Shown here piece after piece: positions 2,971-60,662 of a stretch of DNA of 64,000 bases. Within the stretch, counting starts at the first letter, position 1. Every line of letters starts with the position of its first letter. Source of the DNA: Sipunculus nudus (lineage: Eukaryota > Annelida > Sipuncula > Golfingiida > Sipunculidae). Under the pieces are notes generated by a model. That model did no database searches. It was not told the origin of the DNA and was given only the letters and a program-made list of their open reading frames with translations. The position numbers and the translations under genes are program-made. The stretch is from contig CM049313.1 in assembly GCA_026874595.1 (NCBI GenBank), positions 42,932,659-42,996,658 on the forward strand, read 5' to 3'.

Positions 2971-4230
2971 CAAACTAGCTGGGCCCTCTAACCCCTAATT
3001 ATACCCTAAGGGTGGATTGAATCTGCACTAGCTAAATCGCCTGAACTTACGATTGACCAATCAGTATTTGCCTATGCAGACTAATCAGCGGGCGCGGTGA
3101 TGACTAATCGTCACGGTTGACTGCACTTGACCAGTAACACTCAATGGGTGAACTACATTGCATTATTTTAGTTGGTGAGGGAAGATGAGAGTAAATAAGA
3201 GTAATTTCATCTCCGACTTGTGATTATACAGCACTCTTAATGTCTGTTATACGTAGACTGCTTGTGAAAGTACTCATAAACGCAGTTAAAGAGTTCCGCT
3301 AAGGCTATTTCATGCTGCTTTTATTTGTCGATCTTTGTCAGTGTATTAGAATTTTGCGACTATTGGTTTGGAGTGTATCAAGCTGTTGAGTTCGGCCGTG
3401 ACCTTGACTGACCTGAGGTTGAACAACAGATCCAGTAGGCCGACACTAGTGTGAGTTTTTTTTAACAAACTTTAATCTATGATGTGGAGAGCAGTTATGT
3501 TCTATATACGTAAATCCTTGTTTTGCCAATTAGTTGTGTTGATATAATATGTATTTAAATAATGAGTCTTTAGAGGCATGAACACTAGAAAAAACCTTTT
3601 TTTTGATTGTTTGGACATATAGGGAGTATTTTAGTATATTAACTACAACAGATGTATGTACATGTTATATGATATTGTTATCAGGAGACAGAAGTGTTGA
3701 TCCAGATTTATATTAATATGTCTCTGAAATAATAGCTGTATGTTTCGCTAAATTTCACACATGTATATTAGGTACAGTTGTAGGTGTCTGGTCAGCACAT
3801 GGTCAGTCTGCAGCCTTCAGATCGCAGGTAGTAATGTCCTAAGAGGTTCACATGGAGGGATGGTATGCACTTTGTTCATAGTAATTAAACCATGATTATT
3901 GTAGACATGGTGTGTTAATGATGTCGCTGACATACTTAGTGTCATGAACCTATGTGCATTTGAACTGAACATTACACTTAACATAATATTGAGGACTGAA
4001 CTATATTTTCATACAAGTTTACTCTTTATCTCTTTATAATTTTCCTATGAGTATATATATTTAATTAAGTAGCTTTATAAGGTATACAGGTGCAAACAAC
4101 CTTTCTTTTTTTTTACCTGTATTTCTTGTGTTGTACCTGGGTTCGTCCGCCCTAAATAGGATGCGTTTGAATAAAACAGTCATCGTGCGGTATCGTGATC
4201 AGTTGTGACTCCCAACCCCTTACATTAATA
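2971..4230. other. No gene seen; flank of lectin gene A
   Basis: I see no coding frame, RNA gene or clear repeat in this AT-rich stretch, which lies downstream of gene A. A GC-richer island lies at about 2980-3170. The bases near 4170 include an AATAAA on the plus strand, with no gene to attach it to. Confidence 0.5.
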
Positions 4231-4250
4231 TGTCTAGATATCCATGCATG

Positions 4251-4473
4251 CTAGCAATAGGAGGAGGAGGCGGCGGGAAACTCGTCAATATGAACGATGC
4301 CCATTCCGCCGTCTTGTGACGTAGCAATGGACCTGACCGGCAGTGACGCACCAACCTTTGGGGTGTTGTCTGCAGAAGGTCCTGTCTGCTCAAGGTCATT
4401 GATGTCCGCGTAAAAACTAAATATTTGAGACTCATAACTGTTTGCTGACGTATCACCCTCCGATCTAAATCGA
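4251..4473 (-). pseudogene. Gene A last exon: cytoplasmic tail
   Basis: The acceptor is 'tttcattag'. In the frame shared with gene B this exon encodes an acidic tail of 74 residues with SYESQIFSFYADINDL near the start, and ends at TAG 4251-4253. It needs a phase 2 donor, supplied in gene B by the transmembrane exon. With that exon missing, joining the stalk exon (phase 1) forces the next frame, which stays open to a stop at 4220 and yields 84 basic, unrelated residues. Confidence 0.7.
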
Positions 4474-4623
4474 CTAATGAAAGAAAATCATACATTTTAT
4501 AACCATATCAAGAAAATAAATATAAGGTTATATTTTTTTTGTTTCTCATGCAGGCAAACATAATAACCTTTATATTGCATCAAATTTAGCGAGAAAAGAT
4601 TTTCATAAGGTTATAACATATTT

Positions 4624-5108
4624 TAAAAGGTAATTCTGGACATGTATCTTGGCAGGGTTAAAATCAACGCGATAAGTCGTAAAACTGAATAAATTTTAAA
4701 TTTAACTTACCGTTGGTAACATTCGTTTTCTTTTCTATTTCAGAGTAATTTGTATTCGGCGCTGTCCAATCTGTATTCAATATTTTAATTAAACATTTTG
4801 AACAAAGTAATCTCGAATGATGCACATCCCATTGATTTGAATTAAACTAGATAAAAAATATATATACACTGCTCAAGGCTGTAAATTGAGAGGATGTATA
4901 GATGGTGACACTAGTATCACTGTATAAAAGAAAGTGACAAAAATGCTTCAGTCGCTTAAACGTCAAATTTGAACTTAGTTGCATAAATCTAGGTCAAAGA
5001 TAAATAAAGGTATAAAAAGATGGGTTTCCAACTCATTATGAGAGTTTGCTATGGCATGAATCCTTTTTTATAGAAGCAATATTGATATTAACATTAGGAT
5101 TAATAAAG
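4624..5108 (+). repeat. Tandem duplicate carrying an extra stalk exon
   Basis: This block of about 480 bp is repeated almost perfectly at 5293-5772, with 184 bp between. Both begin 'aaaaggtaattctgg' and end 'cattaggattaata'. In unit B the corresponding left-hand position holds the transmembrane exon instead. The duplicate thus seems to have replaced that region. Near-identity suggests a young event. Confidence 0.85.
4711..4770 (-). pseudogene. Gene A duplicated stalk exon
   Basis: This 60-base exon-like unit has the acceptor 'ttgaatacag' and a GTAAG donor. It reads WTAPNTNYSEIEKKTNVTN in phase 1 to phase 1, the same as the exon at 5379-5438. Being symmetrical, it can be added without shifting frame. 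It provides an N-glycosylation motif (NVT). Confidence 0.75.
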
Positions 5109-5292
5109 ATGCCTGTAACTCGTAAAATAGTAAATGTGCATTAATATGTGCGTATGTATTTGACGCAGATAAAACATGATGGGTATTTTGACCTACTAGT
5201 TTTCACGTATGATTTACAGTTACATTCGTTGTATTTAGATGCTGGATCGCATGGTGAAAATTTTACTTAAAAATACCTGTAGGTCCTAGAAT

Positions 5293-5772
5293 AAAAGGTA
5301 ATTCTGGACATGTATCTTGGCAGGGTTAAAATCAACGCGATAAGTCGTAAAACTGAATAAATTTTAAATTTAACTTACCGTTGGTAACATTCGTTTTCTT
5401 TTCTATTTCAGAGTAATTTGTATTCGGCGCTGTCCAATCTGTATTCAATATTTTAATTAAACATTTTGAACAAAGTAATCTCGAATGATGCACATCCCAT
5501 TGATTTGAATTAAACTAGATAAAAAATATATATACACTGCTCAAGGCTATAAATTGAGGGGATGTATAGATGGTGACACTAGTATCACTGTATAAAAGAA
5601 AGTGACAAAAATGCTTCAGTCCTTAAACGTCAAATTTGAACTTTGTTGCATAAATCTAAGTCAAAGATAAATAAAGGTAAGAAAAGATGGGTTTCTAACT
5701 CATTATGAGAGTTTGCTATGGCATGAATCCTTTTTTATAGAAGCAATACTGATATTAACATTAGGATTAATA
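5293..5772 (+). repeat. Second copy of the 480 bp duplicate (ancestral position)
   Basis: This is the copy in the place collinear with unit B (about 52900-53640). It carries the original stalk exon at 5379-5438. It differs from the other copy by only a few substitutions and short gaps. Confidence 0.85.
5379..5438 (-). pseudogene. Gene A stalk exon
   Basis: A 60-base exon between a 'tacag' acceptor and a GTAAG donor, phase 1 on both sides. It is lined up with 52975-53034 in gene B. The peptide is hydrophilic and lysine/glutamate rich, as expected for a short juxtamembrane stalk. Confidence 0.75.
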
Positions 5773-5923
5773 ATTTATATTAAATGTTTGGCCGATGACC
5801 ACAAGTTTATGTAACCGTTGCATTTGTAGCCATATTCTGTAAATTTAGTAACAATTTTTTTTTATTATGAGGAATCTGCTCGATGTGGGGCTCGTAAAAA
5901 GAAGAAACCGTTTGAAATCTCAC

Positions 5924-6095
5924 CAATACACATCACTGTGACGTTGTCAGAGCATGCGCGCTGGGCCCATCCTACGTCACCACCTCTTTGGAGCAAAACT
6001 CCGCAGTTCATTGTTCCTTCAAAATCATTGGTAAAAAACTTGGTGGGAGGCACACCTGCGAGAGCGATAAATATTAAAGGCGTCCATTCAAATTT
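5924..6095 (-). pseudogene. Gene A exon 5: C-terminal half of CTLD2
   Basis: A 172-base exon with acceptor 'acgtcag' and GTGAGA donor. It encodes the second half of a C-type lectin-like domain: the NCGVLL cysteine, then GWAQRACSDN and VTVMC, which match the conserved cysteines three and four and the intervening tryptophan. No WND triplet is present, so calcium-dependent sugar binding is not supported. It starts in phase 0, which does not fit the end of exon 4 as I read it. Confidence 0.75.
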
Positions 6096-8650: not shown

Positions 8651-10344
8651 ATAGCCACAGTCATTCCAACCAAACACAACCCAAGAGGCAGTTTTGGGGA
8701 AAGGTCAAGCGGCACGGGGGAAATCCCCTCCACAAGCCAACAACAGGGCAAAGTGGAGATACTGAATAACATGCCTTCAACTGAGTTTCAGGTAAGATCA
8801 ATTGCTACTGAGCACCTTAAGAGTAATATTGACTCTGTCAAGCAACTCCTTCAGCAAGAAGCAGCTAAATTCAAAGCAGGCTGTATTTCATGTTTCCGTC
8901 AGAAATGGGAAAACATCACTTCAGATATGTGGATTTTGGATACAGTGATTGGGTGCACATTAGAATTCTCATGTAAACCATATCAAGTCATTCTGCCAAG
9001 ACAGATTAAATTTCTAACAAAGAAACTGATATAGTATAAGCTGAAATAGACAAACTGTTAAAAACGCGGGTGGTTGTACAATGTAAACCTGATAGGAAGG
9101 GGTTTTTTCTCTAATGTTTTCATTAGAAACAAGATGAATGGTACATATAGAATTATATTAAATTTATCAAATTACAATAACTTTATTGTGTACAAACATT
9201 TCAAAATGGAAACTTTGCATACAATGTTGACCTTGGTTCAGCCTAATAGCTTCATGGCCTCCATCGACTTAAAAGATGCCTATTACTCTGTGCCAGTATG
9301 TACAACAGATCAAGATTATCTTTAATTTAAGTATAATGGAGATCACTTCAAATTTACCTCCATGCCCAATGGGATAGCTTGTGCACCGCGTCTCTTCTCT
9401 AAGTTACTTAAACAAGTATTTGCTCTCCTCAGAGGGAGAGGACATGTGGCAGGTTACATAGATGATAGTTTGATCATAGGGGAAACTAAAGATGAGTGTT
9501 TATCATTCAGTAGCTGCCATGTGTAACCTTGTCAGGGAACTTGGGTTCGTTGTTCATCCAGATAAGTCTGTATTGCAATCATCACAGAAGGTAAACATGC
9601 TAGGGTTTGCAATTAATTCAGTTGACATGACTGTCTCATTGTCAGGAGATAAATGTCCGAATATCACAAAAATGTGCAAAAAGCTTCTATCTAAACTGAA
9701 GGCTACCATGCAAGAGATAGCTGAAGTTTTTGGGGTTATGGTTGCATATTGTGAGGGAGCTAAATATGGGAAGTTGCATTTTAGGCAACTGGAAATCCAC
9801 AAAACACAGGCCCTTAGAGCAGCTTAAGAGATGTTGGTAAATCAATGAAAATAACTGGTCGGATGAGGCAAGACCTACAGTGGTGGGCAAATACTGATAA
9901 CCTCAAAGCAAAACCTTTTAGATTGGAAGCCCCAGCTATCACAATCCAGACTGATGCTTCAAAACAGGTTGGAGGACAGTTTGTGAATCTCAGAAAACAG
10001 GGAATAACTGGAGTAATGACTTTTCTGATAAACATATAAAGTTTTTGGAGCTTAAGGAAGTTTTTTCAGGTCTCCAAATTTGTTGTAGCCATGAGATACA
10101 CTCTCATGTCAGAATCCAAATGGATAACACCACTGCTGTGGCCTATGTAAACAACATGGGGGGAAACGGCAGTGTTAAATTCTGTGGCACATCACATGTC
10201 GAAATGGACAGAAAAGCGAATTTGTGGATTAGTGCTGCACATTTGCCTGGTATAGACAATACAGAAGCAGATAGACGGTCTAGATTATTTCATTACAATA
10301 TTGAATTGATTATAAATCGAGCATGTTTTGCCACATTAGTTTAA
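8650..10344 (+). pseudogene. DIRS reverse transcriptase and RNase H, frameshifted
   Basis: The polymerase starts near 8890 with KWENITSDMWILDTV. RT motifs follow: SIDLKDAYYSV (about 9255-9287), MPNGIACAPRLFSKLLK (about 9361-9411) and YIDDS at about 9457, which is the YxDD catalytic box. Next is FVVHPDKS and a GFAINS segment. RNase H signs are TDASKQVGG near 9950, RIQMDNTTAVAYVNNMGG near 10111-10164, and LPGIDNTEADRRSR near 10240. Stops or frameshifts lie at about 9035-9075, 9325, 9490, 9827 and 10037. The encoded enzyme would copy element RNA into DNA; this copy cannot. Confidence 0.85.
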
Positions 10345-10383
10345 CTATGAGGCAAACCTACAGTAGATTTATTTGTATCATCT

Positions 10384-11405
10384 TTGAATAAACAGTGCAA
10401 CAGTTATGTATCTTGGAAGCATGCAATTGCAACTGATGGTTTCTCTCTCGAATGGAATGATTCGGTAATGTATGCTTTCCCACCCTTCAGTCTGTTGAAC
10501 AGAGTACTGGAAAAAGGTGATTACGGATTAAGCAGAACTGATACTGATTGCACAGATATGGACGACGCAACCATGGTTCGCGCAGCTGACCAGATTGCTG
10601 ATAGATTGCCCCAGGCTTCTACCCCCCACCAAACAAGCAATTGTGCTACCCTACGACAAGAAGGCAGTACACCTACTGAATCACATGAAACTGGCAGCTT
10701 GGCGCCTGTCTGGCAATCCTTACAAGACCGAGGAAATCCGAATAAAGCTGCAGATGTCATCATGCAATCATGGAGACAAGGAACAAAAACGCAATATGAC
10801 ACCTTTATCAGATAATGGGTACAGTTTTGAGACAAAACAGGTGAAAATTCACATACACCATCTTTGAGCAATGTGTTGTCATTTTTCGCAGAGTTATTTG
10901 AACAAGGTTTTAGTTATAGCGGAATTAATATAGCACGTTCCTCTCTTTCAACATTCATCTCTCTGGACGGGGTGCCAGTAGGGTCTCACCCCTTAATCAT
11001 CAGATTTGTTAAAGGAGTTTTTCAATTAAGACCGCCACTTCCCAAAAACACCATGGTTTGGGACACTAATGTAGTGCTAAAATACATTGGAAATTTGAAA
11101 GATCCTCTGTCACTAAAAGACCTAACATGTAAAGTGGCTAGCTACACTGTTAGAATTAGTTACAGGACAACGAGTACAAACACTGTGTGGGATTAATGTT
11201 AAGGATGTCAGGTTCTCTGACCAGAAGTGCGTTATAAAAATTGCATCGCTGCTTAAAACAACCAAATCAGGAAGACATCAACGGGACCTACAACTGCCAG
11301 AATACAAACATGACTAAAAATGTTGTCCTCTGTTCAATGTGAAAACTTACATAGATAGGACACAACAACTCAGAGGTGAAACTTCTCAATTGTTCATATC
11401 ATATA
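10384..11405 (+). pseudogene. DIRS tyrosine recombinase, N-terminal part
   Basis: Begins with a linker (NSYVSWKHAIATDGFSLEW) typical of the region between RNase H and recombinase in DIRS. It continues through WRQGTKTQYDTFIR (about 10771-10812), a SAM-like core-binding segment (SNVLSFFAELFEQGFSYSGI) and the start of the catalytic domain (LLKTTKSGRHQRDLQLP, near 11250-11300). Frames change near 10815 and 11196, and a stop lies near 11316. The reading stops where the Helitron inserts at 11405|11406. Confidence 0.75.
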
Positions 11406-12381
11406 CTAGCTAATAAACCCGGTATACCGGGCTTTTTACCGCGGTTTGGGAGATATATTTACTGAGATATTGAATGTTGGTTCATTTTTAGTTTTTTTTT
11501 TTTTAAAGTTAAAAGAAAATATAGATTTTTAGTGGGATACTCTCGGAATATGATATGTACAAATAATTTATTACTGTTATTTTGTGGCGCTGTGCTCGTG
11601 GCAAAAAATCATATCCCGATATGTTTACCTTGAAGACCTGGTCAGTGATGGTTTTCATTGCGAACCGGAATGAGACGCGGAGGCATACAGTGTTTCGTTG
11701 ATATTTGACTGATTTATATCGTTTGACGTATAAAGAACAGGTTTGTGTGAGGAAAACATGAAAGATTAATTAAATGTACGTTGCAAGGAAACTGTTCCTG
11801 AAGAAGGAAACAGAAATATGCATGCATCGTAAGTAGCAATAGCGGACCCAGCGGGACTTTATGCAGTGGGCCCGTATCCCATTTTTAGCCACCGCAACCC
11901 TTTTCATCATATTAGACAAATTTTGAGGCCTGAAACCCCCGACACCACCCCAGCCCTGTTCCTGAAATTGGAATCCTTAAATTAGGTTTTGTCATTAATC
12001 CTCCTGGGTTGAACTCTCCATTTCATAAAGCGAGTAACATGTGTTTTTCTCTTTTACTGACCACGCACGTGGGTCAAATCCCTCATTGAAAGCAAGCGTT
12101 ATTCATAGGAACAATAGTCCTTAGTGTTAGAGGTCCACGATGTTAAGTGACCACGATGCACGCATTCCGGTGATTACCGAAGGCAGTTCGGCTGTGTTCG
12201 GTAAAGAAACGGAAAAATCACTCAAATTATATGTATATTAAAAATTATTTATTTTCATATCGCCTATGTCACTGCGGGTATAATGACCTTTAAAATGATG
12301 TATGGCACATTATTGTACACAACGCGGTTTTAGAGAACACTGCGAACAAACGTGAACCGAATTCCTTTTATAAGTATTAGA
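11406..12381 (-). mobile_element. Non-autonomous Helitron copy 1
   Basis: Read on the minus strand, the element starts with TC (TCTAATACTTATAAAAGG). It ends with the hairpin CCCGGTATACCGGG (11418-11431), nine bases, and CTAG, fitting the Helitron CTRR terminus. The flanks are A at 11405 and T at 12382, the expected A|T target with no duplication. A second copy at 40366-41274 shares both ends. The 976 bp hold no Rep or helicase frame. It interrupts the recombinase ORF, which continues in the same frame on the far side. Confidence 0.9.
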
Positions 12382-12725
12382 TTAAACCACATGGATCAGT
12401 CTCAACAAACACCTTGTCCCGATGGATCAAATGTATTATCCAGGCTGCTGGAATAGATACGAATCAGTTCAGTGCTCACAGGTGTAGGGCAGCTGCTACA
12501 AGCAAGGCTAATGCTTGTGCTGTGCCTATAGAAACTATCATTAAAAATGGAGGTTGGACCAACAGTAAGACACTTGCTAGGTTTTACAATATACCTATTG
12601 CTAACTCAGATACTTTTGCAAACTGTATTTTAGATGATGCAGTTTTAGGATCATGGATACACTGCATTGTTGTGAACATTTTGATTGATGGATCTGGTCT
12701 ATTAAAACTTGTATATTTATTTTGA
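12382..12725 (+). pseudogene. DIRS tyrosine recombinase, C-terminal part
   Basis: Continues the recombinase directly after the Helitron. It contains SAHRCRAAATSKA near 12472-12511, the H-x2-R box of tyrosine recombinases. The catalytic tyrosine context GGWTNSKTLARFYNIPI follows near 12552-12602. It ends at the stop at about 12723. The H, R and Y residues are preserved. Confidence 0.85.
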
Positions 12726-16282: not shown

Positions 16283-16507
16283 CTTTCTCTGGGGTTTCAG
16301 CGTACCAGCCCCGCTTCCTGAGTCCTATCCATAGATCCTCTTCCCTAGAAAACTGACCCGCCACGGGGACCGTCGTACTTAAATTCCCACCGAGTGACAA
16401 GCATTGTTTCACGGCTTCATACCAGGTGGCGTCAAGTGTAACTTTGCCGAGGCACGACCGCTGTCCCGAATACCGCTTACATCCATATGGCGTGCAGCTT
16501 GAACAGT
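16283..16507 (-). pseudogene. Gene A exon 4: N-terminal half of CTLD2
   Basis: After the acceptor 'aaaattatag' the exon reads DCSSCTPYGCKRYSG (first residue completed by exon 3), then ATWYEAVKQCLSLGGNLST and DLWIGLRKRGWY. These are the N-terminal cysteine pair, the W-x3-A-x3-C-x3-G-G-N-L core and the W-I-G-L strand of a long-form CTLD. It is open throughout. The likely donor GTACAT gives a phase 1 end. It is close to identical to 54653-54890. Confidence 0.8.
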
Positions 16508-17326: not shown

Positions 17327-17443
17327 CTGTCCACTGACACACGTATCCGTGAAGCTCCGTTGTACATTCCGCAGCGTAGATATACGTGCTCACGTAAGCA
17401 CACGAGAATGATTCTTTATCACGAAGTACATCATCGCTTGAAG
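17327..17443 (-). pseudogene. Gene A exon 3: C-terminal half of CTLD1
   Basis: Acceptor 'gattgcag'. Reads SSDDVLRDKESFSCAYVST, then AAECTTELHGYVCQWT, giving the last three CTLD cysteines. It is 117 bases against 123 in gene B, a two-codon difference. The donor is GCAAGT, a GC-AG intron shared with gene B. Phase 1 on both sides. Confidence 0.8.
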
Positions 17444-25582: not shown

Positions 25583-25765
25583 CCAGCAGTATTCCGTTGA
25601 TCCACCTCCAGTGATCGTCTCGGTATCTGTGAATGTTTAACCAGACTGATGTCACGTTCAGTCGCTCCATGTGGTGTCGGATTAACTCTCTTTCCTTCTT
25701 ATCATTGTCAGATGGTAAATACATCTTGTTTTTAAGACAGAATCCTTGAGCTTCAGTAATATTTC
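25583..25765 (-). pseudogene. Gene A exon 2: N-terminal half of CTLD1
   Basis: 183 bases, phase 1 both sides, acceptor 'tttaaag'. Reads NITEAQGFCLKNKMYLPSDN, then HHMERLNVTSVWLNIHR and DDHWRWINGILLG: the first domain cysteine, the W-L-N-I strand and the W-x-W-I-N-G turn. The donor is GCAAGT, whereas gene B has GTAAGT at the same place. Fully open. Confidence 0.8.
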
Positions 25766-27098: not shown

Positions 27099-27267
27099 CG
27101 TGACTAATGATGACGAGGCCATCTGCATTCTCAGTGAGGGATGCTGCTGTGTTAACGAAGTCGGCCTTTATGCTAAATGGCTCTGTGTCAAAAGACAGGA
27201 GAAGAACGTAACACAGTAAAATATAACGTAGGTTTTCCCAATGTAAATGATAATTATCAAATCTAAT
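27099..27267 (-). pseudogene. Gene A exon 1: N-terminal hydrophobic segment, start codon lost
   Basis: Same length as gene B exon 1 (169 bases, phase 1 end, donor GTAAGT). The hydrophobic segment LRYILLCYVLLLS and following ADFVNTAASLTENADGLVII are kept. The codon aligned with gene B's ATG is ATT at 27265-27267. I see no replacement in-frame ATG nearby. Confidence 0.7.
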
Positions 27268-32097: not shown

Positions 32098-33650
32098 TAG
32101 ATGTGTCGGAACGACACGAATGCCCCCGCCTTGGGCAAATTAGAAACATTGGTAAAATTTGGAAAATTTTTTAAGTTCAGGAGGTGTCGTATGGTCAAAA
32201 GTAGGTCAACAAGGGCAAAATGCAAACTCGATCTGTAACGGGTCATTATCAAGCAACACACCAAAAATCATGCCAGTATATGCAGGCATTGTGAAAAAAA
32301 GTCCATACATTGTGCATTTTCCATAAAAATTTCTGTCTTTCATGAAATTTTCTATGTTTAGGAGCCGTAAAACAATCAAAAGTAGGTCAACCGGGATGAA
32401 ACGCAAACTCGATCTGTAACTGTCATTATCTGCCCACACAAAAAAAATCAGGGTGGTATCTGCAGGCATCAAGGAAAAAAAGTCAGTACATATGCATTTG
32501 TTATGAAAATTTATATTTTCCATGAAACTTTCTATGTTCAGGAGCAGGTCAAATGGTCAAAAGTAGGTCAACTGAGACAAAACAAGAACTCGATCTGTAA
32601 CTGGTCATTATCTGCCTACACACCAAAAATCAGGCCCGTATCTGCAGGCACTGCGAAAAAAAGTCCATAAATGTGCACCTTTTTATGAAATTTTTTTATG
32701 TTAGAGCACCGTCAAACGGTCAAAAATAAAGTCAACTGGGACAAAACGTGAACTTGATCTGTAACTGGTCATTATCTGCCAACACACCGAAAATCAGGCC
32801 AATATCTGCAGGTATTGTGAAGAAAAGTCTGCACAAGTGAATTTGTCATGAAAATATATTTTACATGAAATTTCTATGTTCAGGAGCCGTAAAACAGTCA
32901 AAAGTAGGTCAACCGGGACGAAATGCGAACTCCATCTGTAACTGGTCAATATCTGCTGACACACACCAAAAATCAGGCCAATATCTGCGGGCATTGCGAA
33001 AAAAGTCCGTACATGTGTATTTGTCATGAAATTTCATATTTTTCATGAAATTTTCTATGTTCAGGAGCCGTAAAACAGTCAAAAGTAGGTCAACCGGGAC
33101 GAAACGCAAACTCGATCTGAAACTGGTCTATATCTGCCCACACAAAGAAAATTAGGCCAATATCTGCAGGCATTGCGAAAAAAAAGTCTGTACATGTGTA
33201 TCTGCCATGAATATTTCTATTTTTCATGAAATTTTCTAAGTTTAGGAGCCGTAAAACGGTCAAAAGTAGGTCAACCTGGACGAAATGCGAACTCGATCTG
33301 TAACTGGTCTATATCTGCTCACACACCAAAAATCAGGCCAATATCTGCAGGCATTGCGAAAAAAATTACGTACATGTGTATCTGTCATGAATATTTCTAT
33401 TTTTCATGAAATTTTCTAAGTTTAGGAGCTGTAAAACGGTCAAAAGTAGGTCAACCGGGACGAAACGCGAACTCGATCTGTAACTGGTCTATATCTGCCC
33501 ACACACCAAAAATCAGGCCAATATCTGCAGGCATTGCGAAAAAAAGTCCGTACAACTGTTTGATTTCGGAATGACGGAAGGACGGAAGGACGGAATGACG
33601 GACATGGGTAAAACTATATGCCCCGGCCACTTTGTGGCGGGGGCATAAAA
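32098..33650 (+). mobile_element. Interspersed element with eight ~180 bp tandem units
   Basis: Begins near 32105 with a 'gtgtcggaacgacac' palindrome and 'atgcccccgcc', and ends with 'ggcgggggcat' (about 33638-33648) plus an A run. The inverted G/C-rich ends bound a tandem array. The marker 'tcaaaagtaggtcaac' recurs at about 32195, 32375, 32557, 32720, 32898, 33079, 33260 and 33440, spaced 163-182. Units closer to the 3' end are more alike. Minus-strand frames reading repeated 'MPADIGLIFGVWADIDQLQ' are translations of the array, not genes. Lies in a region absent from unit B. Confidence 0.7.
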
Positions 33651-36341: not shown

Positions 36342-37170
36342 TATGGATAATAAAACTCAGTTGCGCCTTGTATCTTTTAATTGCTATGGATTGAAATTCT
36401 CTGTATCTTTCATTCAAGAATTGTGTAAAGATAATGATGTGTTATTTCTTCAAGGAACATGGCTCTTAAATGAAGAGCTGGTAATTTTTAAACAGATTCA
36501 CAAAGATTTTACTGGTTTTGGAGTGTCAGCTATGGATTACAGTGAAGGCCTGGTTGCCGGACGACCACATGGTGGTGTTGGTATACTCTATCGTTAACAA
36601 CTAGTAAACATATGTAACGAAGTTTTTTACACTGATAACAGATTTTTAGGTTTGGAAATAAGCACTAAATCTCTTGATAAAATCTTATTTGTGAATGTAA
36701 ATCTACCATAACAAAGTTTTTCCACATATGAAGACTATATGGAGTGTCTAGGTTATCTTCGGTCAGTTATTGAAACATGTGACACATCAATTAATATTGT
36801 CATTGGTGATTTTAATGCAAGTATTAATACTTTGTTTGAAGAAGAGCTTTTAGCTTTTTGTAATGCGTCAAATATGATAGTAGCTGATTACGAAAAGATT
36901 GGTAGAGACAGCGGATTCTACACTTTTATCAGCCATGCAGACAACACCACTTCATGGTTAGACCATATTTTGTGTAGTGGTAATGTATATCCGTTAATTA
37001 GTGATATTTGTGTTAGCCCAAAAAGTCCGTGCTCAGATCACCTGGTACTTCATGCTGTTATGAATATCTCGCTGAATAAGGAAAAACGTTCTCAGATGAC
37101 TAAAGTTACAGAATGTTTAATTAATCAGTTCTCAGTTGTAAATTGGTCAATCACTGATGAGATAAGTTAA
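36342..37170 (+). pseudogene. LINE APE-type endonuclease
   Basis: Starts MDNKTQLRLVSFNCYGLK, the N-terminal strand with the conserved asparagine. Then FLQGTWL, where the usual catalytic glutamate of Q-E-T is replaced by G. Later motifs are VIGDFNASIN (36800-36829), TSWLDHILCSG and SDHLVLHAV (the D-H pair). Stop codons near 36596 and around 36710 break it. It would nick target DNA to prime reverse transcription. Confidence 0.8.
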
Positions 37171-37481
37171 ACAGTTATAGGGATTATACCCAGAATATGT
37201 TGTCGGATATTTAATAACCAAAAAATACTTTACTGTGTTCAAATGTCAGGTGTACAGACCCAACTCACTTACGTGATATTGATGTTCTGTACAAAAGCAT
37301 CTGTGAATCTCTGCGATATGCTGGGTACAAAACGTATACTAAATGTAAAAGTAATTCTCATAGAGATTATATTGTACCAGGTTGGAATGATTATGTAGAA
37401 GCTCTTCATACCGAAGCACGTCATAATTATGTTATCTGGAGAGGCCAAGGCAAACCAAGGTCTTGACCTGCATGTGAGTCC

Positions 37482-39215
37482 ATGAGACGTTCTCGTCTTC
37501 AGTTTAAATATGCTCTAAGACAATGTCAACAGACTGAGGATCAGTTGAGAGCTGATGCTATGGCAAAAACTGTTGAAAACAGGGATCAAAAATTCTTTTG
37601 GAAGGAAGATCGTAAACCTTATAATTCTAAGGTACCCCTTTCTACTAATATTGATGGTGTGGTTGGAGAACAGAATATATCTAAATTGTGGAAAAGCCAC
37701 TATTGTAACCTTCTGAATTGCATTAAATCGTCAACACATAAACATCAAGTCATGCACCAGTGTAACAAAATTTGCAGTAAAAGAATTAATTTTACTTCCT
37801 TAGAAGTTGCTGACGCAATTTAAAGTTTGAAGTCAGTAAATCTGCTGGATTGGACTGTCTGAGTGCTGAGCACTATAAATATGCTGATAAGCAAATAGAA
37901 GTGTTACTGTCTTTTTTGTTCTCATTTAGTGTAAATCATGGCTATATTCCTACAGGTTTGATGGATACTATAATTGTTCCTTTTAGTAAAGAATAAAAAT
38001 GGTTAAATAAATGAAAAGAATAATTATAGACCAATAGCTCTTGTTACTATTATGTCAAAGATATTTGAATTTGTTTTGTTGCTTAAAATAAAGAATATTA
38101 TTGGTATATGTGATAATCAATTTCGATTTAAGAAAGGACATGGTACAGATTTTGCACTGTATACACTAAAAACTACAGTAGAATACTACAGGAAATTTAA
38201 TAGACCCGTCTTTGTCTGTTTCTTGGATGCTTCTAAAGGATTTGACCGAATAAATCACTGGACATTGTTTCGTAAGCTTATTGCTAGAAATGTACCTATA
38301 CTTGTTGTTCGTATCCTTGTGAACTGGTACCAGAATCAATGGTTTTGTGTGAAATGGGGTTCATGTACATCAGAGTTTTTTAATGTGACTAATGGTGTCA
38401 GACAAGGAAGTGTGATATCGCCACACCTGTTTGCTTTATATGTGGATGACCTAAGCTATTTACTAAACAAGTGTAATAATGGTTGCCAAATTAATGACCT
38501 TTCAGTAAATCATATTTTTTATGCAGATGACCTTTGCCTTATTGCACCAAGTGCAAAAGGACTACAGAATCTATTTGACATTTGTCAAAACTATGGTACT
38601 TCTTGTGATATTATGTATAATCCTCAGAAAACAGAATGTTTGGTTATTAGACCAAAAGGTTATACTCTTGTCTGTCCAAAGGTGACATTAGGAGGCTTGG
38701 AAATTAAGTTTGTATCAAAAGTGAAATATTTAGGCGTTGTAATTCAAGATAATCTGCAAGATCATGAAGATATGTTAAAGCAGTTGAGAAGTTTATGTGC
38801 ACGAAGTAATATTCTTTTGCGTAAATATAGTAAATGTTCACAACCGGTCCTTGCATCCTTGTACCAAGCATATTGTTCAAATTTTTATAATGTCACACTG
38901 TGGTGTAATTATTCAAAACAGATGTACAGCAAAATCAGGACTGGTTGTAATAACGTACTCAGACGGTTTCTTAACTATTCTAGAATGGATAGTGCCGAGG
39001 CAATTTATGTAGATAATGGACTAGATAACTTTGATGTGGTAATACGGAAAAATATTTATAGATTTATGTGTAGACTGGAAAATAACTCAAACATTATTAT
39101 TAAGTGTTTATATGATAAAAATACTATCATGTCTGGCGTCCTGTGGTCTACTTGGCAAACTTGTACACACCAAACCAGGGGTGATGGTTTGCATACAGTA
39201 AGTTATGGTTCTTAA
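37482..39215 (+). pseudogene. LINE reverse transcriptase
   Basis: 37482-37823 holds the RT upstream region (QFKYALRQCQ...FFWK). The polymerase continues from 38052 for 387 codons: FRFKKGHGTDFALYTLK, VFVCFLDASKGFDRINHW (first catalytic aspartate), GVRQGSVISPHLFALYVDDL, and FYADDLCLI, the F-Y-A-D-D catalytic box at about 38518-38535. KVKYLGVVIQDN marks the end of the palm. A gap in frame at 37823-38052 and a possible deletion of the zinc-ribbon C-terminus (it stops at 39215) are the visible defects. Confidence 0.85.
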
Positions 39216-51875: not shown

Positions 51876-51964
51876 ATATGTTATAAAGTATAAACCTTTT
51901 TATATCCATATAATAAATGACACTATCCCTTTCATATTTACTTAAGCACGAATTATTAACATAT

Positions 51965-52208
51965 CTAGTTATCAATGCATGCTAGCAATAGGAGGGGGGG
52001 CGGCGGAAAACTGTCGTCAATATGGACGCTGCCCATTCCGCTGTCTTGTGACGTGGCAATGAACCTGACCGGATGTGACGCACCAGCCTTCGGGGTGTCG
52101 TCTGCCGAAGGTCCTGGATCCTCCTTAAAGTCATTGATGTCCGCATAAAAACTAAATATCTGAGACTCGTAACTGTTTGCTGACGTATCGCCCTCCGATC
52201 TATACCGA
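51965..52208 (-). CDS. Gene B last exon: cytoplasmic tail
   Basis: Acceptor 'tttcattag', start phase 2, stop TAG at 51965-51967. Reads RYRSEGDTSANSYESQIF, then SFYADINDFKEDPGPSADD and IDDSFPPPP near the end. YADI fits the Y-x-x-hydrophobic sorting motif. Several serines follow. The other minus frame of this exon is also open (51982-52230) but does not continue from the upstream exon. Confidence 0.75.
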
Positions 52209-55200
52209 CTAATGAAAGAAATACATACATTTTATAACCCTATCAAGAAAGTGAATATGAGGTAATTTTTTATTTATTTTATTTTTTTCTCACGCAAACA
52301 TAATTACCTTTCTTTTGCATCAAATTAAGCAAAGAAAGATTTTCTTGAGGTTATAACATATTTTAGAAACATAACAGAAAATATCTCATTTACGCCAAAT
52401 ATACCTATCAAATTATCTCGAATTGGGTTTCTCAAAATGTCTCTGACTTCCTTCATACGTACCTCCGACTGGTGACCACGAATTTTCTGATAGAGAAGAG
52501 CGTTATCGTAAGGATCACCACGGCAACCAGAGCAACTGTTACGTAGAGCCAGAACAAAACGCCTGGCATATAATAAATAATTATTGATTATCTTAACAAA
52601 TCCATAAGTGTATGTGGATATCTAATTGTTGAACTAAATTTGCCAAACATATTTATTCAGATTTTGAGAAGTTTGAGGGAATTTAGATCTTTTATATATA
52701 TTCTAAATTGCCTGCGACTCATAAAATAGTAAATGGGCATAATATAAATATGCGCGTGTGTATTTGACGCAAATAAAACATGATGGGTATTTTTACTTAC
52801 TAGTTTTCTGGTATAAATTACAGTTACACTCCTTGTATTTAGATCCCTTATCGCATGATGAAAATTTTACTTTAAAATAGCTGGTCCTAGAATAACAGGT
52901 AAACGTGTATCTTAGCGGGGGTAAATAGCAATGCGGTAAGTATTAAAACTGAATAAATTATAAATTAAACTTACTGTTGGTGCTGTTCTTTTTCTTTTCT
53001 ATTTCAGAGTCCTTTGTAGTTAGCGCTGTCCTATCTGTTTTAAATATTTTAATTAAACATTTTGATAAAAGTCCTCTTGGACTGGTATGTGGATAAATAA
53101 TTTGGCATAAAGACTGGCAAATGTTTACGGGTAAATGTTTGGTATTTCATTTTTTTTTCCATTTGTCGGTCCCAAATATTTAAATATGAAATTAAATGGC
53201 TCTGGAAGATTTCACAAAAACACATTATTTTTTTCACGAGTGGAAACTGAGAATTTATAGCAAACATGTCAACAGAATAAATGATCAGATCAATTTCTGA
53301 TAATCCATCTGCATATTTGCGGGATGAGGCACATCCTGTCGATTTGAATTAGATAAAAAAAATGATATACACCGCTCAAGGCTGAAAATTGAGGGGAAGT
53401 ATAAATGGTGACATTGGTATAACTGTATAAAAGAAATTGAATAAAATGCTTCAGTCGCTTCGACGTCAAATCTTAACTTTGTTGCTTAAATCTAAGTCAC
53501 AGATAAATAAAGTTTAGAAAAGATGGGGTTCAAAACATCAACAAATTATGAGAATTTGCTATGGCATGAATCCTTATTTATAAAAGATCGCAAACGGTGC
53601 CGGTCCGCAATATTGATATTAACATAAATCAGGATTAATTATCTATGTTTGGCCGATGACCACAAGTTTATGTAACCGTTGTATCTGTAGCCATATTCTG
53701 TAAATTTGGTAACAATTTTTTTTTATTATGAGGAATATGCTCGATGTGGGGTTCGGAAAAAGAAGAAACCATTTGAAATCTTACCAAAACACATCACTGT
53801 GACGTTGTCGGAACATGTGCGCTGGGCCCATCCTACGTCGCCACCTCTTTGGAGCAAAACTCCACAGTTCAACCTTCCCTCAGATTCATTGGTGAAAAAC
53901 TTGTTGGGAGGCACACCTGCGAGAGCGGTAAATATTAAAGGCGTCCATTCCAATATCTGACGTGTATGATATAAAGATAATTTCTTGAAACTTTTATAAA
54001 AAAAAATAAGCCAAAGAAGCGGTGCACAGACTCTCCATTTTGTTTATATCCACATGTTTATGTGGGGGCACCAACATGTCCACCGGTCCTAATCCAAACA
54101 CGTCCAACAAGTCATCTGCCGATAAATCAAACCAAGTAGAATATTTAAAAACAAAACTAAGTTTTTCCCACCATTTAAAAATTTTTAATTAGATCGAAAC
54201 TGAGGCCCTATAGTGATATACACACCGAACAAACTGATGTACGGCAACGTCATTAGATGTGAATATTCTAAATATAGGTCAGCATATTTTCCTAAGTATA
54301 AACGATATTCATAATAATCAATATATATTCTAATAGTTTGCTCAGTGCCTGTGTATATCATTTATTTAAAAATACTGTTTTTCTAGATTTACACGTCAAA
54401 CGCCTGTAATTCGGCGGAAAGATTAGACTCATTTAATATCTAGGTCGTTGGCCATAACGGATAAGGACATTATATATACATTCCTGTTCTGACAAGCAAA
54501 CTCCTTTTGACATAATACTTAATAAAACCCACTGAACCGATATAATTTTAATAATTAAAAAAGTTTTCCCGATAAATCTTGTTACCGCGACAAAGATATT
54601 CAGTTGCACCTGGGAGTGGATTGTCCTAAAGCAGACAAGATGGAAGTGTTACCTGCCTGTTTTTGTAAGTTCTGGGGTTTCAGCGTACCAGCCCCTCTTC
54701 CTGAGTCCTAGCCACAGATCCCATTCCCCAGAAAACTGACCGGCCACGGGGAACGTCGTACTTAAATTCCCACCGAGTGACAGGCATTGTTTCACGGCTT
54801 CATACCAGGTGGCGTCACGTGTAACTTTGCCGAGGCACGACCGCTGTCCCGAATACCGTTTACATCCATATGGCGTGCAGCTTGAACAGTCTATAATTTT
54901 AAAAGAAGAGAAATAGGTTGTGAATTGTATTATGAATATCGCTATATTTGTGAGAACATATAAATTACTCGTCTCTCTGTGAATAACAGAGGTTTTGAAA
55001 ATGTTCAAATCATTATCTTTAGGGGCCAATATATTAGTTTAATGTACTTTAATTGAACTGGATATGTATAGGCCAATGTTAGTCGATGTGCTTTCTATCC
55101 TACACATGGTGAAACAAATGACGTGATAATAGTGATAACGTAGTGGTCAGAGACCACAACGACCTCCGCCAGGACCCTAAATAAACTACATAGTAACACC

Positions 55201-58200
55201 GGAAATGTGCGTCACGGATCAACAACTCCCGTTACTAATGAACAAGTGTCTCTTGGCATTGACAGGGACAAAACTCATACAATGATAATTAAGATAAATG
55301 CAAATGGTTAATAGATTGTTCCAAGGGTACCTTCTTATCCTTAAAAAAATGTCATCAAAACCTGTTTAGTTCCATTTGCGCAAGGTTGCTGACAGACAAA
55401 CCAAAGTGCCAAGGGTGAAATATAATATTGCTAAACTTCGTGACCGTTGACATATTCACATGATCGTTAAGCTGTAAGCCATTTTGCAGCATCGCTTTTT
55501 ATAGATAACACGCACGAACAGGTGAATGCACAGGAATTCTTTATTTCTTTAGTTAAAACTAATCAAATGTTTTTATGATGAGGATTCGTATTTAACCTTT
55601 GACAATTTTTAGATATATTCACGTGATCGGTAAGCAGTCAGCCATTGGCAGTGAGATCGTGTTTTATCAATAATAAATGCAAACAGGTGATATACACTAT
55701 TTTTTTCCGTAGAAGTTGTAGAAATTATAAATGAATAAAATATTTGAACGAGTGAAAAGAAACATAATTAAATGAAATTTCCAAAACAGATAATTTTGGA
55801 CCCTCTTATTAAAACGAGATACACACGCAATCCATCAGATAGCAATTCATAGTATTAATGTGACGGCTACAAACTTGGAGATTAACACCCCGTTTATTTG
55901 AATAGCCCGCTAAAATGAATATAATTGGTTGACAAATACGATATTCAATTAAACGGGGCCGACTGTACCTATTGCCACCTTGCGGACAGAAACCTACAGG
56001 AGAGACACATCATCCGGACTCCTGCAGTACGTTACTTTCAATGTTCTCCTACACTGTTATATGTTCGTACTCTTCCCTAATGTTAACGGAGGTATGCAGT
56101 ATTCCCCATTAAGGTTAAGAGACGCAGTTAGGTCCGCCAAGGAAGATAGGGCCTTCGTATTATTGCAAGAAATAGGTTAGAATGTAATAGGTAACTCGCT
56201 GACATCATGGCAAGAAATATGATGTCAGGGAACATAGGATTTTGAGTTGATAGGATGTTGATAAGATGTTCTCAAAATGTGTACGTGATGCGTAATCTGC
56301 GGGGCTATATTTTATGAATTACACGTGACAGATTTATTATAAATAATAAGAATGGGAAATTATAATTAATTCCTTGATTTGGGAGTAACTTGCCTGTCCA
56401 CTGACACACGTATCCGTGTAGCTTCGTTGTACATTCTGCAGCGTAGACATACATATGTTGGTTCACGTAAGCACACAAGAGTATTTCTTTATCACGAAGT
56501 ACTTCTTCGCTTGAAGCTGCAATAGAAATCATATCCTGTAATTTCATATTTTTTTGCGGGGGGGAGGAGTTAATTTAAACTTTATTCGTGTGGAAATTAA
56601 TTCCCAAAAACTCATGACGAATCATATAAATATATAAAACCAGGGACCCATGGGTCTCGACGCTCAGATGAGGGTTTTTATTTTCAAAATGTCTGTCCTG
56701 TGACCTTGACCCATAACCTTGTGAGATAAAAATCTTAGAACTAACTATCCTACACCATACTTATTTTCATAAAAATCCATCAACTCATTCTTGACATAGC
56801 TAGAACACTGACAGGTCAGAAAAAGCCCCGCAAATAGGCCCATAGACTTCAAGTGCGGGCTGAGTTATGCCTTATTACATGAAGAGACAGAGGCGACTGA
56901 CCCAAGACAGTATTTTATCCACTTAACAGAAATTATAAGGTCTGAATCAATGCTAGTAGTGTATAAAGATATAACAGTGGAACATCTCAAGCAACAGAGG
57001 CATAATTACATCCGATGTGTTAAACTTTAAGCCTGGTTAGCTCAGCAGGATGGTTGTGTGACCATGACCTTTGTCCTTGTGATGCAAAAATTCAATACCG
57101 TTCTTTCCCTATTGTTAGGTGTTCCATAAATGAAAGATGAGAGGTTTTGGGTGAATACTTTGCTTTAAATGCGTCCACATGCTATTTCAAGAAGAAGGAG
57201 GGAAGACATATGTAAAAGATAAAAGGATGGAATGAAAACGTTGGCTTGAAATGTGTCCAAAAGCTATTTAGAGTCCACAAGCTATTTCCACAAATTTGTG
57301 GACAGATTGACCTTGTGACCCCAAAATCCTTTAATCAAAAAAGATCTTCCACTATTGGCAAGTGCACAATATATTGAAGATGGAAGGTTTGGGATGAATA
57401 GTTTGGTTTATAATGCATCTATAATAGTTGACCTTTGAACTAATGACTCCTAAATGTACAGGGTTTTTTTACCTAAGTGATGGGACAAACAAATTTCGAG
57501 TTTGAAATCAATATTTAATTTCAAACTGGAGTTATCATACGGAAACGATTTTGTGTACAGACAGACAGACTTACAAAAGGAAAGACCGACGGACAAGGTG
57601 ATTACTAAAAGGCATCCGCTTATTAAAGCAGGGCTCTATTAAACACACGAGGTTTCAGGACTCTAGATGAAACCACTGTTGGGGAACTGATCAATAAATT
57701 TGCAGTCTCAAAATAAAGGAAAAATACATCAAAAAGAGAAAACATACAGGTTGCACCATCAGTCTTCAGGTACTGAAGAAACCAGTCATGACCAATAAGC
57801 ACATTTAGTTTCGGGACACTAGATGAAACCACAGCTGAGACACTGACATGATTGCTGTCATTTGACGGTCTCAACAAAAGAAAAAAAAATATCATAAACA
57901 TTAGAAAAAAATACAGATGGCGCCACCAGTTCTCCTGAACTGACAAAAATGGCCATGGTCTATATTCAAGGTACGATTCATGGCAATCTATGCATTATTT
58001 ATCAAGATACTGGAGGTTTTGTGTCAAATAAATAATTATTCTCCGGAAACTTACTTCAAAGCTCGGAGCATATAGGTCAAAGTGACCTAATTTCAGGTAT
58101 CCAAGATATTTTCCCCCTTTTGGATTTTCACTCATAAGTTTCTTAGGTCAGCGGTTACGATTTGTGCCTTGCTACCGACGGCCGGACGTCGGACATAGTG

Positions 58201-60662
58201 ACATACCTGTACCTCAGTTGACATTCTTTTAACTGAGCTAAAAATGGCTGGTCTCCCTTCGTTATCAAATAACAGTTAAAAGAGGTTTGTTTCTTTCACT
58301 GTCAACTAATTCCCAATAATACTTCAATAAATACATTTCTTTGCATTTGCATTAATTCTGAAGTGGAAAAAAATTGGTTTTCATTCAATTTTCAACCAGA
58401 TATATTTGCACATACGTTTCCTATAAATATGCGCATGTTTCAAATAAATATGCAAATACATGTTTCAAATAAAAAGTGCACTTGCATGAGTTTTTCAAAT
58501 AAATGTGCACATGCATGTTTCAAACAAATTTGCTCATATTTTAAATAATTTATATAAGCAAAAAATGCAAAATAAATGTGCCCATACATGTTTCAAATAA
58601 ATGTGCCTATACATGTTTCAAATGAATGTGCGTATGTTTCAAATAAATGTGGATATGCTTTTTTTAAATATGCATACACGTTTCAAATAAATGTGCAGAT
58701 GCTATTTCAAATAAATGTGCCTATACATGTTTCAAATAAATGTGCACATGTAAGTTTCAAATAAATGTGCATATGCAATTTTTAAATGAATATGTATACA
58801 CGTTTCAACTTAATGTGCAGATGCATGTGTCAAATAAATGTACACAAACATGTTTCAAATAAATGTGCGTATGTTTTGAATAAATGGGCACATGCAAATT
58901 TTGAATAAATGTGCAATCAAATGTTTCAATTAAACGGGCAGATGCATGTTTCAAAGAAAAGTGCACAAACATGTTTCAAATAAATGTGCGTATGCTTCAA
59001 ATAAATGTGCATATACAATTTTTTTCAATGTGCATATTAATGTTTAAAATAAATGTGCAGATGCATGCATGCTTCAAATAAATGTACACAAGCATGTTTC
59101 AAATTAATGTGCACATACATATTTTAATAAATGTGCATACAAATGTTTCAACTAAATATGCAGATGCATGTTTCAACTGAATATGCACAAACATGTTTCA
59201 AACAAATATTCGCATATTTTAAATAATTTATTTTTGCATATAAATGTTTCAAATTAATGTGCGCATACATGTTTCAAATAAATGGGCATATACATGTTTT
59301 AAATAACTGTGCACACACGTTTCATATAAATTATTGACTTATTAATCAAACTTACCCAGCAGTGTTCCGTTGATCCACCTCCAGTGATCGTCCCGATATC
59401 TGTGAATGTTTAACCAGACAGATGTCACGTTCAGTCGCTCCATGTGGTGTCGGATTAACTTCCTTTCCTTCTCTTCATTGTCAGTTGGTAAATACATCTT
59501 GTTTTTACGACAGAATCCTTGGGCTTCAGTAATATTTCCTATAAAAGGAAAGATGAGTGGGAAAATTTATTTTTAAATATTAGGACAAGTGTATTATACA
59601 TCATATTATATTTATTAATATATGGGTAAACTGCATTCGGATTTTATGATATTTGCAACATTCAAACACATTCCTTGAACAAGCGATGGCGTCATAAACT
59701 AATGTTTGTGTGTGTGTTAATTTCAATACGGGAATTTTTTGGACTTTGTTATGAAAATTATAATAACCATGAAATACAATTTACATTATCGATCTGAAGT
59801 ATGGATATTCACCCAGTTCGGTTGTCCATTTCTTAAAATACATAAATTAATCAACGAAAACAGCAAGATACGTGTATTGTGGGATAAAAATATCTGTATA
59901 TGTGTCTTCTATGTATTCGAGATACAAACGTCTTAAACTAAAATTGCTTTAAAATGTTCACCGTCTGAATTGAAGTGAATATGTTTACTTTAACTCTGTA
60001 CAGATGCAATAGAGTGAAATAAATGGTTAAATATACAATGTACATTTGAACACAATCTGCAATCAGGTCATGCCAGTTAACTCATCTGCTGACCTGGGGC
60101 CAATTCAAATCCAATTCAAATTTAACACTTTCTATGACTTTCTGTCTGTTGGATAAAGTCCTGATTGGAATATTGTTTCCTCTATTTCAATTCAGTTAGC
60201 AATTTAAAAACAAATGACAGCATTTAAGCCATATATTGTTCGTATCATCCACAATGAGGCATCTGTATTTGACTTCAGCCAAAAACTTTATATAGCTGAT
60301 TAATAATTGAAATACTCCACTTTTATTGGCGAGAACTGGAACATATCAGTTCATCTAAAATCATGGATATTAGTTATTAATTTTATTTTCTTCTTTTTCA
60401 ATTCAATTCCAATTCATGTGAACGTTTCTAAAATTCCAATTCAATTCCCTTCCAATTCAGAATTCCCCCCATGTCAGCTAATCGTTGATTTACCGTGACT
60501 GATGATGACAAGGCCATCCGCTTTCTCACTGAGGGAGGCTGCTGTATTAACGAAGTCGGCCGTCATGCCGATCTGCTCTGTGTCAGAAGACAGGAGAATA
60601 ACGTAACACAGTAAAATATAACGTAAGTTTTCCAACTGTAAATGACAATCATCAAAGTCCAT
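51965..60662 (-). CDS. Lectin gene B: predicted two-CTLD type I membrane receptor
   Basis: Eight exons give about 430 codons: hydrophobic N-terminus (likely signal peptide), CTLD1 (exons 2 and 3), CTLD2 (exons 4 and 5), a 20-residue stalk, a transmembrane helix and an 80-residue acidic tail. Phases agree between exons 1-2-3-4 (all phase 1) and 5-stalk (1)-TM (1)-tail (2). The 4-to-5 junction does not fit with the splice sites I see, so a small exon may be missed or this junction is broken. Neither CTLD shows EPN, QPD or WND sugar-binding triplets, so a protein or other ligand is as likely as a glycan. Recognition or adhesion at the cell surface is an inference from the architecture. Confidence 0.75.
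52463..52562 (-). CDS. Gene B transmembrane exon
   Basis: 100 bases, acceptor 'atatgccag', donor GTACGTATG, phases 1 to 2. Encodes SVLFWLYVTVALVAVVIL followed by TITLFSIRKFVVTSRR: a single hydrophobic helix ending in basic residues, as expected for a type I anchor. No equivalent exists in unit A. Confidence 0.85.
52975..53034 (-). CDS. Gene B stalk exon
   Basis: 60 bases, acceptor 'ttttaaaacag', GTAAGT donor, phase 1 both sides. Reads RTALTTKDSEIEKKKNSTN. Contains an N-glycosylation motif (NST). Confidence 0.75.
53785..53956 (-). CDS. Gene B exon 5: C-terminal half of CTLD2
   Basis: 172 bases, acceptor 'cacgtcag', GTAAGA donor. Reads ILEWTPLIFTALAGVPPNKF, then RLNCGVLLQRGGDVGWAQRT and CSDNVTVMCFG. 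It holds the closing cysteines of the domain and an N-glycosylation site (NVT). It starts in phase 0. Confidence 0.8.
54653..54890 (-). CDS. Gene B exon 4: N-terminal half of CTLD2
   Basis: Acceptor 'aaaattatag'. Reads CSSCTPYGCKRYSGQRSCLG, then ATWYEAVKQCLSLGGNLST and EWDLWLGLRKRGWY. The 3' end diverges from gene A after 'gaaaccccaga'. The donor is either GTAACA at 54651-54652 (phase 2) or GCAGGT four bases earlier (phase 1, like the GC donor of exon 3). Neither joins exon 5 in phase. Confidence 0.75.
56394..56516 (-). CDS. Gene B exon 3: C-terminal half of CTLD1
   Basis: 123 bases, acceptor 'tctattgcag', phase 1 both sides. Reads SSEEVLRDKEILLCAYVNQ and AAECTTKLHGYVCQWT. The donor is GCAAGT, so the intron is GC-AG type, as in gene A. 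Confidence 0.8.
56645..58239 (-). mobile_element. AGCTCAGCTGAC-type interspersed element, copy 3 (intron)
   Basis: Minus orientation: starts AGCTCAGTT at 58231-58239 and ends CATCTGAGCGTC followed by ACCCATGGGT at about 56646-56670. It contains 'tgaccttgaccc' and 'ggcgccaccag' blocks shared with other family members. It lies in intron 2 of gene B, and a partial collinear copy is in gene A. No coding capacity. Confidence 0.65.
58400..59330 (+). repeat. Minisatellite of ~25-40 bp TTTCAAATAAATGTGC units
   Basis: About 25-30 degenerate units of 'tttcaaataaatgtgc' plus a variable 'atatgcatg'-like end. At the collinear place in unit A (25480-25560) only one or two units are visible. Frames reading repeated FQINVPIHVSNKC are translations of the array. 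It lies in intron 2 of gene B. Confidence 0.75.
59356..59538 (-). CDS. Gene B exon 2: N-terminal half of CTLD1
   Basis: 183 bases, acceptor 'ccttttatag', donor GTAAGT, phase 1 both sides. Reads NITEAQGFCRKNKMYLPTDN, then HHMERLNVTSVWLNIHRYR and DHWRWINGTLLG. Three N-glycosylation motifs (NIT, NVT, NGT). Confidence 0.85.
60494..60662 (-). CDS. Gene B exon 1: start and N-terminal hydrophobic segment
   Basis: ATG at 60660-60662 in the context 'caagcccATGG', close to the animal consensus at +4 though with C at -3. Reads MDFDDCHLQLENLRYILLCY, then VILLSS, a hydrophobic core fitting a signal peptide, followed by ADFVNTAASLSEKADGLVII. Donor GTAAAT, phase 1 end. Confidence 0.7.

Follow-up and report, generated by a model that had tools for sequence, protein, structure and literature searches.

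What remains of a membrane receptor gene when the exon encoding its anchor is gone, and what could such a gene still make? The question is raised by gene A, one of two related genes (A and B), both on the minus strand, in a window of 64,000 nucleotides from Sipunculus nudus (positions 42,932,659 to 42,996,658 of contig CM049313.1, here C8), which lies within an 80.9-Mb contig of a 1.43-Gb genome. Further copies, genes C and D, are located outside the window. In a preliminary description of this DNA it was proposed that gene A had lost its transmembrane (TM) exon to a duplication of the stalk exon, exposing an alternative frame of the tail.

Modelled exons and encoded domains

The exon chain was modelled from GT-AG or GC-AG borders together with matching phases, and all exon borders given here belong to that model; some of the modelled splice sites are weak or of the GC type, as scored with consensus frequencies. 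In the chain CTLD1 takes up three exons and CTLD2 two; these are followed by a 21-nt microexon, a stalk exon of 60 nt and phase 1-1, in gene B a 100-nt TM exon leading from phase 1 to phase 2, and a tail exon.

27099..27182, minus strand: gene A, CTLD1 first exon (model), leader and start tentative
25583..25765, minus strand: gene A, CTLD1 second exon (model); the open reading frame holding it matches Lectin_C, E 1.2e-5
17327..17443, minus strand: gene A, CTLD1 third exon (model)
16283..16507, minus strand: gene A, CTLD2 first exon (model)
5924..6055, minus strand: gene A, CTLD2 second exon (model)
5816..5836, minus strand: gene A, 21-nt microexon with a weak donor (modelled)
5379..5438, minus strand: gene A, parental stalk exon (model)
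4711..4770, minus strand: gene A, duplicate stalk exon, 60 nt, phase 1-1, with the same donor and acceptor as the parental copy
4220..4473, minus strand: gene A, tail exon; its alternative basic frame (phase 1) stops at 4220, its original acidic one at 4251
53677..60577, minus strand: gene B, microexon (53677-53697), then CTLD exons (53785-53916, 54657-54890, 56394-56516, 59356-59538, 60494-60577) (model)
52975..53034, minus strand: gene B, stalk exon (model)
52463..52562, minus strand: gene B, TM exon, 100 nt, phase 1 to 2 (model), hydropathy 2.75 over 19 residues
51965..52208, minus strand: gene B, tail exon, original acidic frame with SFYADI (model)

Lectin_C (PF00059) is matched in two stretches by each spliced protein, with 44.9 bits for B and 45.5 bits for A (cut-off 22.6); the single exons of CTLD2, taken alone, gave no PF00059 match. 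The best sequence matches in the PDB are killer-cell lectin-like receptors (E 1.3e-4) and the asialoglycoprotein receptor (E 2.4e-3). EPN or QPD together with WND are the canonical calcium and sugar motifs, which mark sugar binding and not the fold. None of them was seen when the spliced A and B proteins were read by eye, and therefore the ligand may perhaps not be a Ca-dependent sugar. The ITIM consensus, S/I/V/LxYxxI/V/L, belongs to cytoplasmic tails, and SFYADI, which all four copies carry in their original tail frame and which is absent from the alternative frame of A, is one short match to it.

The intron between the end of CTLD2 and the microexon (window positions 5784-5923 and 53644-53784) is identical between A and B at 81 of 87 positions, as high as in the exons. 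Where the microexon is read through, translation leads in both genes to GYINLWSSAKH and, soon after, to a stop, so that an alternative secreted end is possible; as supporting evidence this read-through was set aside, owing to the equal conservation of the adjoining intron.

The local array

Genes A to D form a local array, and the exon model assigns to it a receptor with two CTLDs, a short stalk and an acidic tail. Searched for as DNA in the whole genome, the tail region of A turned up in at least four full places (A, B, C and D) and, in two pieces, at a fifth (Z), all on one strand of the contig that holds the window. The tails of A, B, C and D start at C8 42936878, 42984613, 43032527 and 43080286, which gives a spacing of 47.7-47.9 kb; it is this even despite the well-diverged sequence of A and a modelled gene span of 22.9 kb in A and 8.6 kb in B. 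The identity between C and D is 99.0% over 18.7 kb, and B is identical to C at 98.1% and to D at 97.8% over 11.1 kb. Beyond the A-D loci, the matches of the whole-genome protein search (105 of 337 candidates scored) are 25-38% identical; among the same scored candidates is a distant CTLD paralogue (C8:42905780-42908916, minus strand, 30-33% identity) about 28 kb downstream of the A tail. As expected for an animal gene, no relatives were found at E 1e-3 with a 224-residue CTLD query in the bacterial and archaeal set genome_contigs (21 pattern matches), nor with the A/B alignment in the set viral_contigs (130 pattern matches).

The window also holds a LINE-like element (36712-39215, plus strand), with RVT_1 at 38007-39215 (E 1.1e-31) and an endonuclease-like stretch at 36712-37170 (E 3.1e-5, below the Pfam cut-off). 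A broken element on the plus strand (9326-12725), presumably DIRS-like, contains one piece of a reverse transcriptase (E 8.6e-7) and another that resembles a tyrosine recombinase (Phage_integrase, E 1.8e-4); neither of them reaches the Pfam cut-off. There is a tandem array at 32164-33554 (181-bp unit, 7.8 copies, 82% matches), and a minisatellite at 58434-59331 (25 bp, 36.6 copies, 68% matches) lies within gene B, where it adjoins the second exon of CTLD1.

Rearrangement in gene A

Along the plus strand gene B has its tail at 51965-52208, its TM exon at 52463-52562 and its stalk exon at 52975-53034, which is the order given in the preliminary description, and the exon model, in which the TM exon is 100 nt long, likewise reproduces its change from phase 1 to 2. 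When the two genes are aligned, the tail end (A 4224-4628 to B 51955-52368) and the stalk side (A 5110-5476 to B 52709-53072) match at 82-85% identity, whereas 339 bp of B at 52370-52708, holding the TM exon, are without counterpart in A. Where the TM region should be, gene A has 483 bp (4624-5106) that are a copy of its own 5292-5773, with 98.1% identity over 483 columns, and the near-perfect stalk copy described earlier is thus borne out. The order in A along the plus strand is tail, stalk copy, intron piece, stalk.

4624..5106, minus strand: gene A, duplicate of the stalk-exon region, standing where B has its TM region; 98.1% identical to 5292-5773, 5 substitutions assigned to it via B
5107..5291, minus strand: gene A, intron stretch parting the two stalk copies; in B (from 52709 up) it lies between TM region and stalk exon
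5292..5773, minus strand: gene A, parental stalk-exon region, from comparison with the duplicate and with B
52370..52708, minus strand: gene B, TM region missing from A; at least three genome places (B, C and D)

The possibility of a TM exon elsewhere in the window was followed by tblastn with the TM sequence, and the best match after B itself (44114-44191) reaches only E 0.058 at 31% identity. Over 19 residues, hydropathy peaks at 0.83 in the modelled A protein (leader excluded) and at 2.75 in B, and between stalk and tail no TM helix was found in A, whereas B, C and D have one. That A lost its TM exon and has a stalk copy in its stead is established for this assembly.

At both junctions the flanks have two to three bases in common, according to our own reading of the sequences, and this fits either a tandem duplication with a deletion or template switching. 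The stalk region together with the following intron piece (about 667 bp) would have been duplicated in tandem, after which a deletion would have removed everything from the second intron piece up to and including the TM exon; alternatively, one template-switching event could have yielded both the duplication and the deletion. The end state would be stalk, intron piece, stalk copy and tail.

Direction and age of the loss

Considering that the TM exon is found in B, C and D alike, at the same position and with the same phase, it was A that lost it. The TM region of 339 bp was found by the whole-genome DNA search in at least three places, B, C and D, and the whole-genome protein search matched the TM stretch at the same three among the 105 of 337 candidates scored; the stalk region occurs at least twice in A and at least once each in B, C and D. 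In C and D the TM exon has the borders, length and phase of that in B, and the frame is open up to the tail stop. Gene A is the sole full copy without a TM region in the genome search, and the coupling of exon loss to stalk-exon duplication, as first suggested, is right, with C and D giving it its polarity.

Between the two stalk copies of A, 482 aligned columns show 8 substitutions and 1 indel (1.7%); with B as reference, 5 substitutions fall in the duplicate and 3, with the indel, in the parental copy, none of them in the exon. Three nearby A/B intron stretches have identities of 0.839-0.865, that is, they differ at 13.5-16% of positions. Against these introns the divergence of the copies makes the loss look young, falling in about the last tenth of A/B history, under the assumptions of a clock and of no gene conversion. 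The ratio is loose (about 9-24%), since four other non-coding A/B stretches have identities of 0.817, 0.868, 0.884 and 0.931. The loss may be near in age to the amplification of B, C and D.

Reading frames of the tail

Joined to the stalk, the tail of A is open for 84 codons up to the stop at 4220, and the out-of-frame join of stalk to tail put forward in the preliminary description stands in this respect, with the correction that the duplicate stalk exon, being 60 nt long and of phase 1-1, adds 20 residues in frame. The suggestion that this frame is new to A does not hold, because it is open in all four copies (75 codons in B, 81 in C and 81 in D), and neither does the weight placed on its openness. 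When the A and B tails are recoded synonymously, the frame survives in 8.4-19.7% of cases. An excess of silent changes in it was not found between A and B (21 substitutions, 191 columns), with 6 seen versus 5.95 expected (P 0.57), and with the original frame treated as constrained there were 6 versus 4.56 expected (P 0.27). In these comparisons the 84-codon alternative frame is no sign of function. Its pI is 10.8 versus 4.2 in the original frame.

The original frame, which requires a preceding phase-2 exon, is the conserved and ancestral one, because the B and C tails differ by 4 silent and no amino-acid changes. Over its first 68 codons the silent and amino-acid changes are 4/0 for B/C, 3/0 for B/D and 1/0 for C/D, in pairs that are not independent. 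In A this frame is kept at 81% identity to B over 69 residues, and its A/B dN/dS is 0.43 (bootstrap 0.17-1.25); about two tail substitutions are expected since the loss, too few for a test of selection.

The last tail codons (4251-4290 and 51965-52010) vary by indels, so that the copies differ in their C-terminus. A and Z alike have a tail 2 nt shorter than that of B, C and D, and 1 nt that is present in A and C is missing from B. The 2-nt difference had been considered as damage in A and was dropped, because Z also has the shorter form.

Constraint and fate of gene A

The modelled CTLD exons of A hold no stop and no frameshift, and dN/dS, an average over both branches, is 0.37 versus B (bootstrap 0.23-0.66), 0.37 versus C and 0.36 versus D. 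Taken together, this suggests that A was kept under constraint for most of its life. Among the other copies the silent and amino-acid changes in the CTLD core (2/5 for B/C, 2/6 for B/D and 0/1 for C/D) are too few to show constraint.

A transcript of the gene would splice both stalk exons in frame, both being of phase 1-1, and the tail would follow in a frame other than its old one. The product would be a protein with two CTLDs, a doubled stalk and a basic tail of 84 residues, with neither anchor nor SFYADI; on the exon model the likeliest product, if there is any, is a two-CTLD protein that is secreted and has an altered tail. Secretion is assumed here, because no convincing leader exon was found in the unit of A or of B: the strict search gave no candidate in either, and the single weak candidate per unit from the relaxed search was not accepted. 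Such a soluble form or decoy, if made, could bind the ligand of the family. In our judgement the probable explanation of the locus is that A lost its TM exon by duplication and deletion, that its product, if made, would be secreted, and that the gene is a barely tested derivative, in which the alternative tail frame would be a by-product of codon overlap and not an adapted part.

Two fates are open to this one structure, and their probabilities overlap with that of the explanation just given. On the one hand, A could be a nascent pseudogene or silent, the rearrangement having been tolerated since the copy no longer mattered, and to such plain decay we give an even chance. In its favour, no in-frame ATG was found upstream of the first CTLD exon in A, whereas B, C and D have one shortly upstream; this, however, is qualified by the start codon of B being itself a guess, and the acceptor CACAG common to all four copies could make the absence irrelevant. 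Polyadenylation signals point the same way, A having only ATTAAA at 4065 and weaker variants within 3700-4300 versus two AATAAA in B (51875 and 51852) soon after the tail. So does Z, a decayed orphan tail exon about 8 kb downstream of A (L011 5555-5814, C8:42928554-42928813) with stops in all three frames; tblastn with the B protein from Z up to the A tail found no other receptor exon below E 0.5. The intact CTLD exons and their dN/dS argue against decay. On the other hand, these same exons, together with the splice sites kept by the duplicated stalk exon, would suit a gene that is transcribed and secreted as a soluble form of the B/C/D receptor. The stop falls in the last exon in either frame, so that the transcript would be no obvious target of nonsense-mediated decay, and there are precedents in LILRA3 and equine CEACAM41. 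We hold such adoption to be a tentative possibility, as the alternative frame shows no sign of selection and the ATG is missing. We think that A is currently a barely tested derivative, for which decay is slightly likelier than adoption.

Other readings carry much less weight. Two haplotypes or a mis-join in the assembly might have made the stalk duplication and hidden the TM exon; in animals of high heterozygosity allelic divergence can reach levels such as 1.7%, the difference between the copies lies within that range, and a single assembly was available. However, the junction flanks match over two to three bases, too few for an overlap-based mis-join, and there is no N in the window of this 80.9-Mb contig, and we regard such an artefact as improbable. 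It is more doubtful still that a cryptic acceptor inside the A tail exon keeps part of the original frame. Four AG sites would be suitable (first bases 4444, 4381, 4369 and 4312), but SFYADI is kept only by 4444, the site before it is purine-rich and looks poor by eye, and since the protein would lack a TM helix in this case too, its tail would end up extracellular. Hardly more probable is the bolder proposal of a secreted two-CTLD decoy born in one step, in which stalk duplication and TM-exon deletion would together have turned a signalling receptor soluble, with a ready-made basic tail in an overlapping frame already used by TM-skipping isoforms of B, C and D.

Comparison with known systems

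Loss of the anchor is a familiar route by which receptor genes come to solubility or decay. What gene A adds is a young loss in an array whose three other full members are anchored, with molecular steps that can still be read. An expressed A would exemplify the origin of a soluble lectin-like protein from a membrane receptor, and a silent one would be a textbook example of a pseudogene in its first stage. The case also illustrates that an open alternative frame is by itself no evidence.

LILRA3 is described as a member of a receptor cluster without TM region and cytoplasmic tail, and soluble (PMC8562567). Gene A resembles it in lacking the TM region by its own gene structure, but LILRA3 has Ig domains and is a known protein, whereas A keeps its tail exon, which would be read in another frame, and is known here from a gene model. 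KIR2DL4 and KIR3DL2 transcripts skip a TM exon of 104/105 bp, for which a 'possible soluble receptor' is named (PMC6288254); there the loss is by splicing, in A it is a genomic loss of a 100-nt exon. For equine CEACAM41, transcripts without the TM exon are reported after duplication, with the receptor paralogue secreted (PMC5856374), and the difference is that alternative splicing leaves the genomic exon present, whereas in A the exon itself is gone. The repertoires of C-type lectins and similar proteins in bivalves are expanded, and their signal peptides, TM domains and domain numbers have been annotated; lost TM exons are not mentioned in the excerpt of that study (PMC10140915). The titles and opening lines of abstracts that were listed name no CTLD paralogue without TM of the kind of A, which does not exclude one in print. 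At best, gene A is a further case of the soluble relatives of membrane immune receptors.
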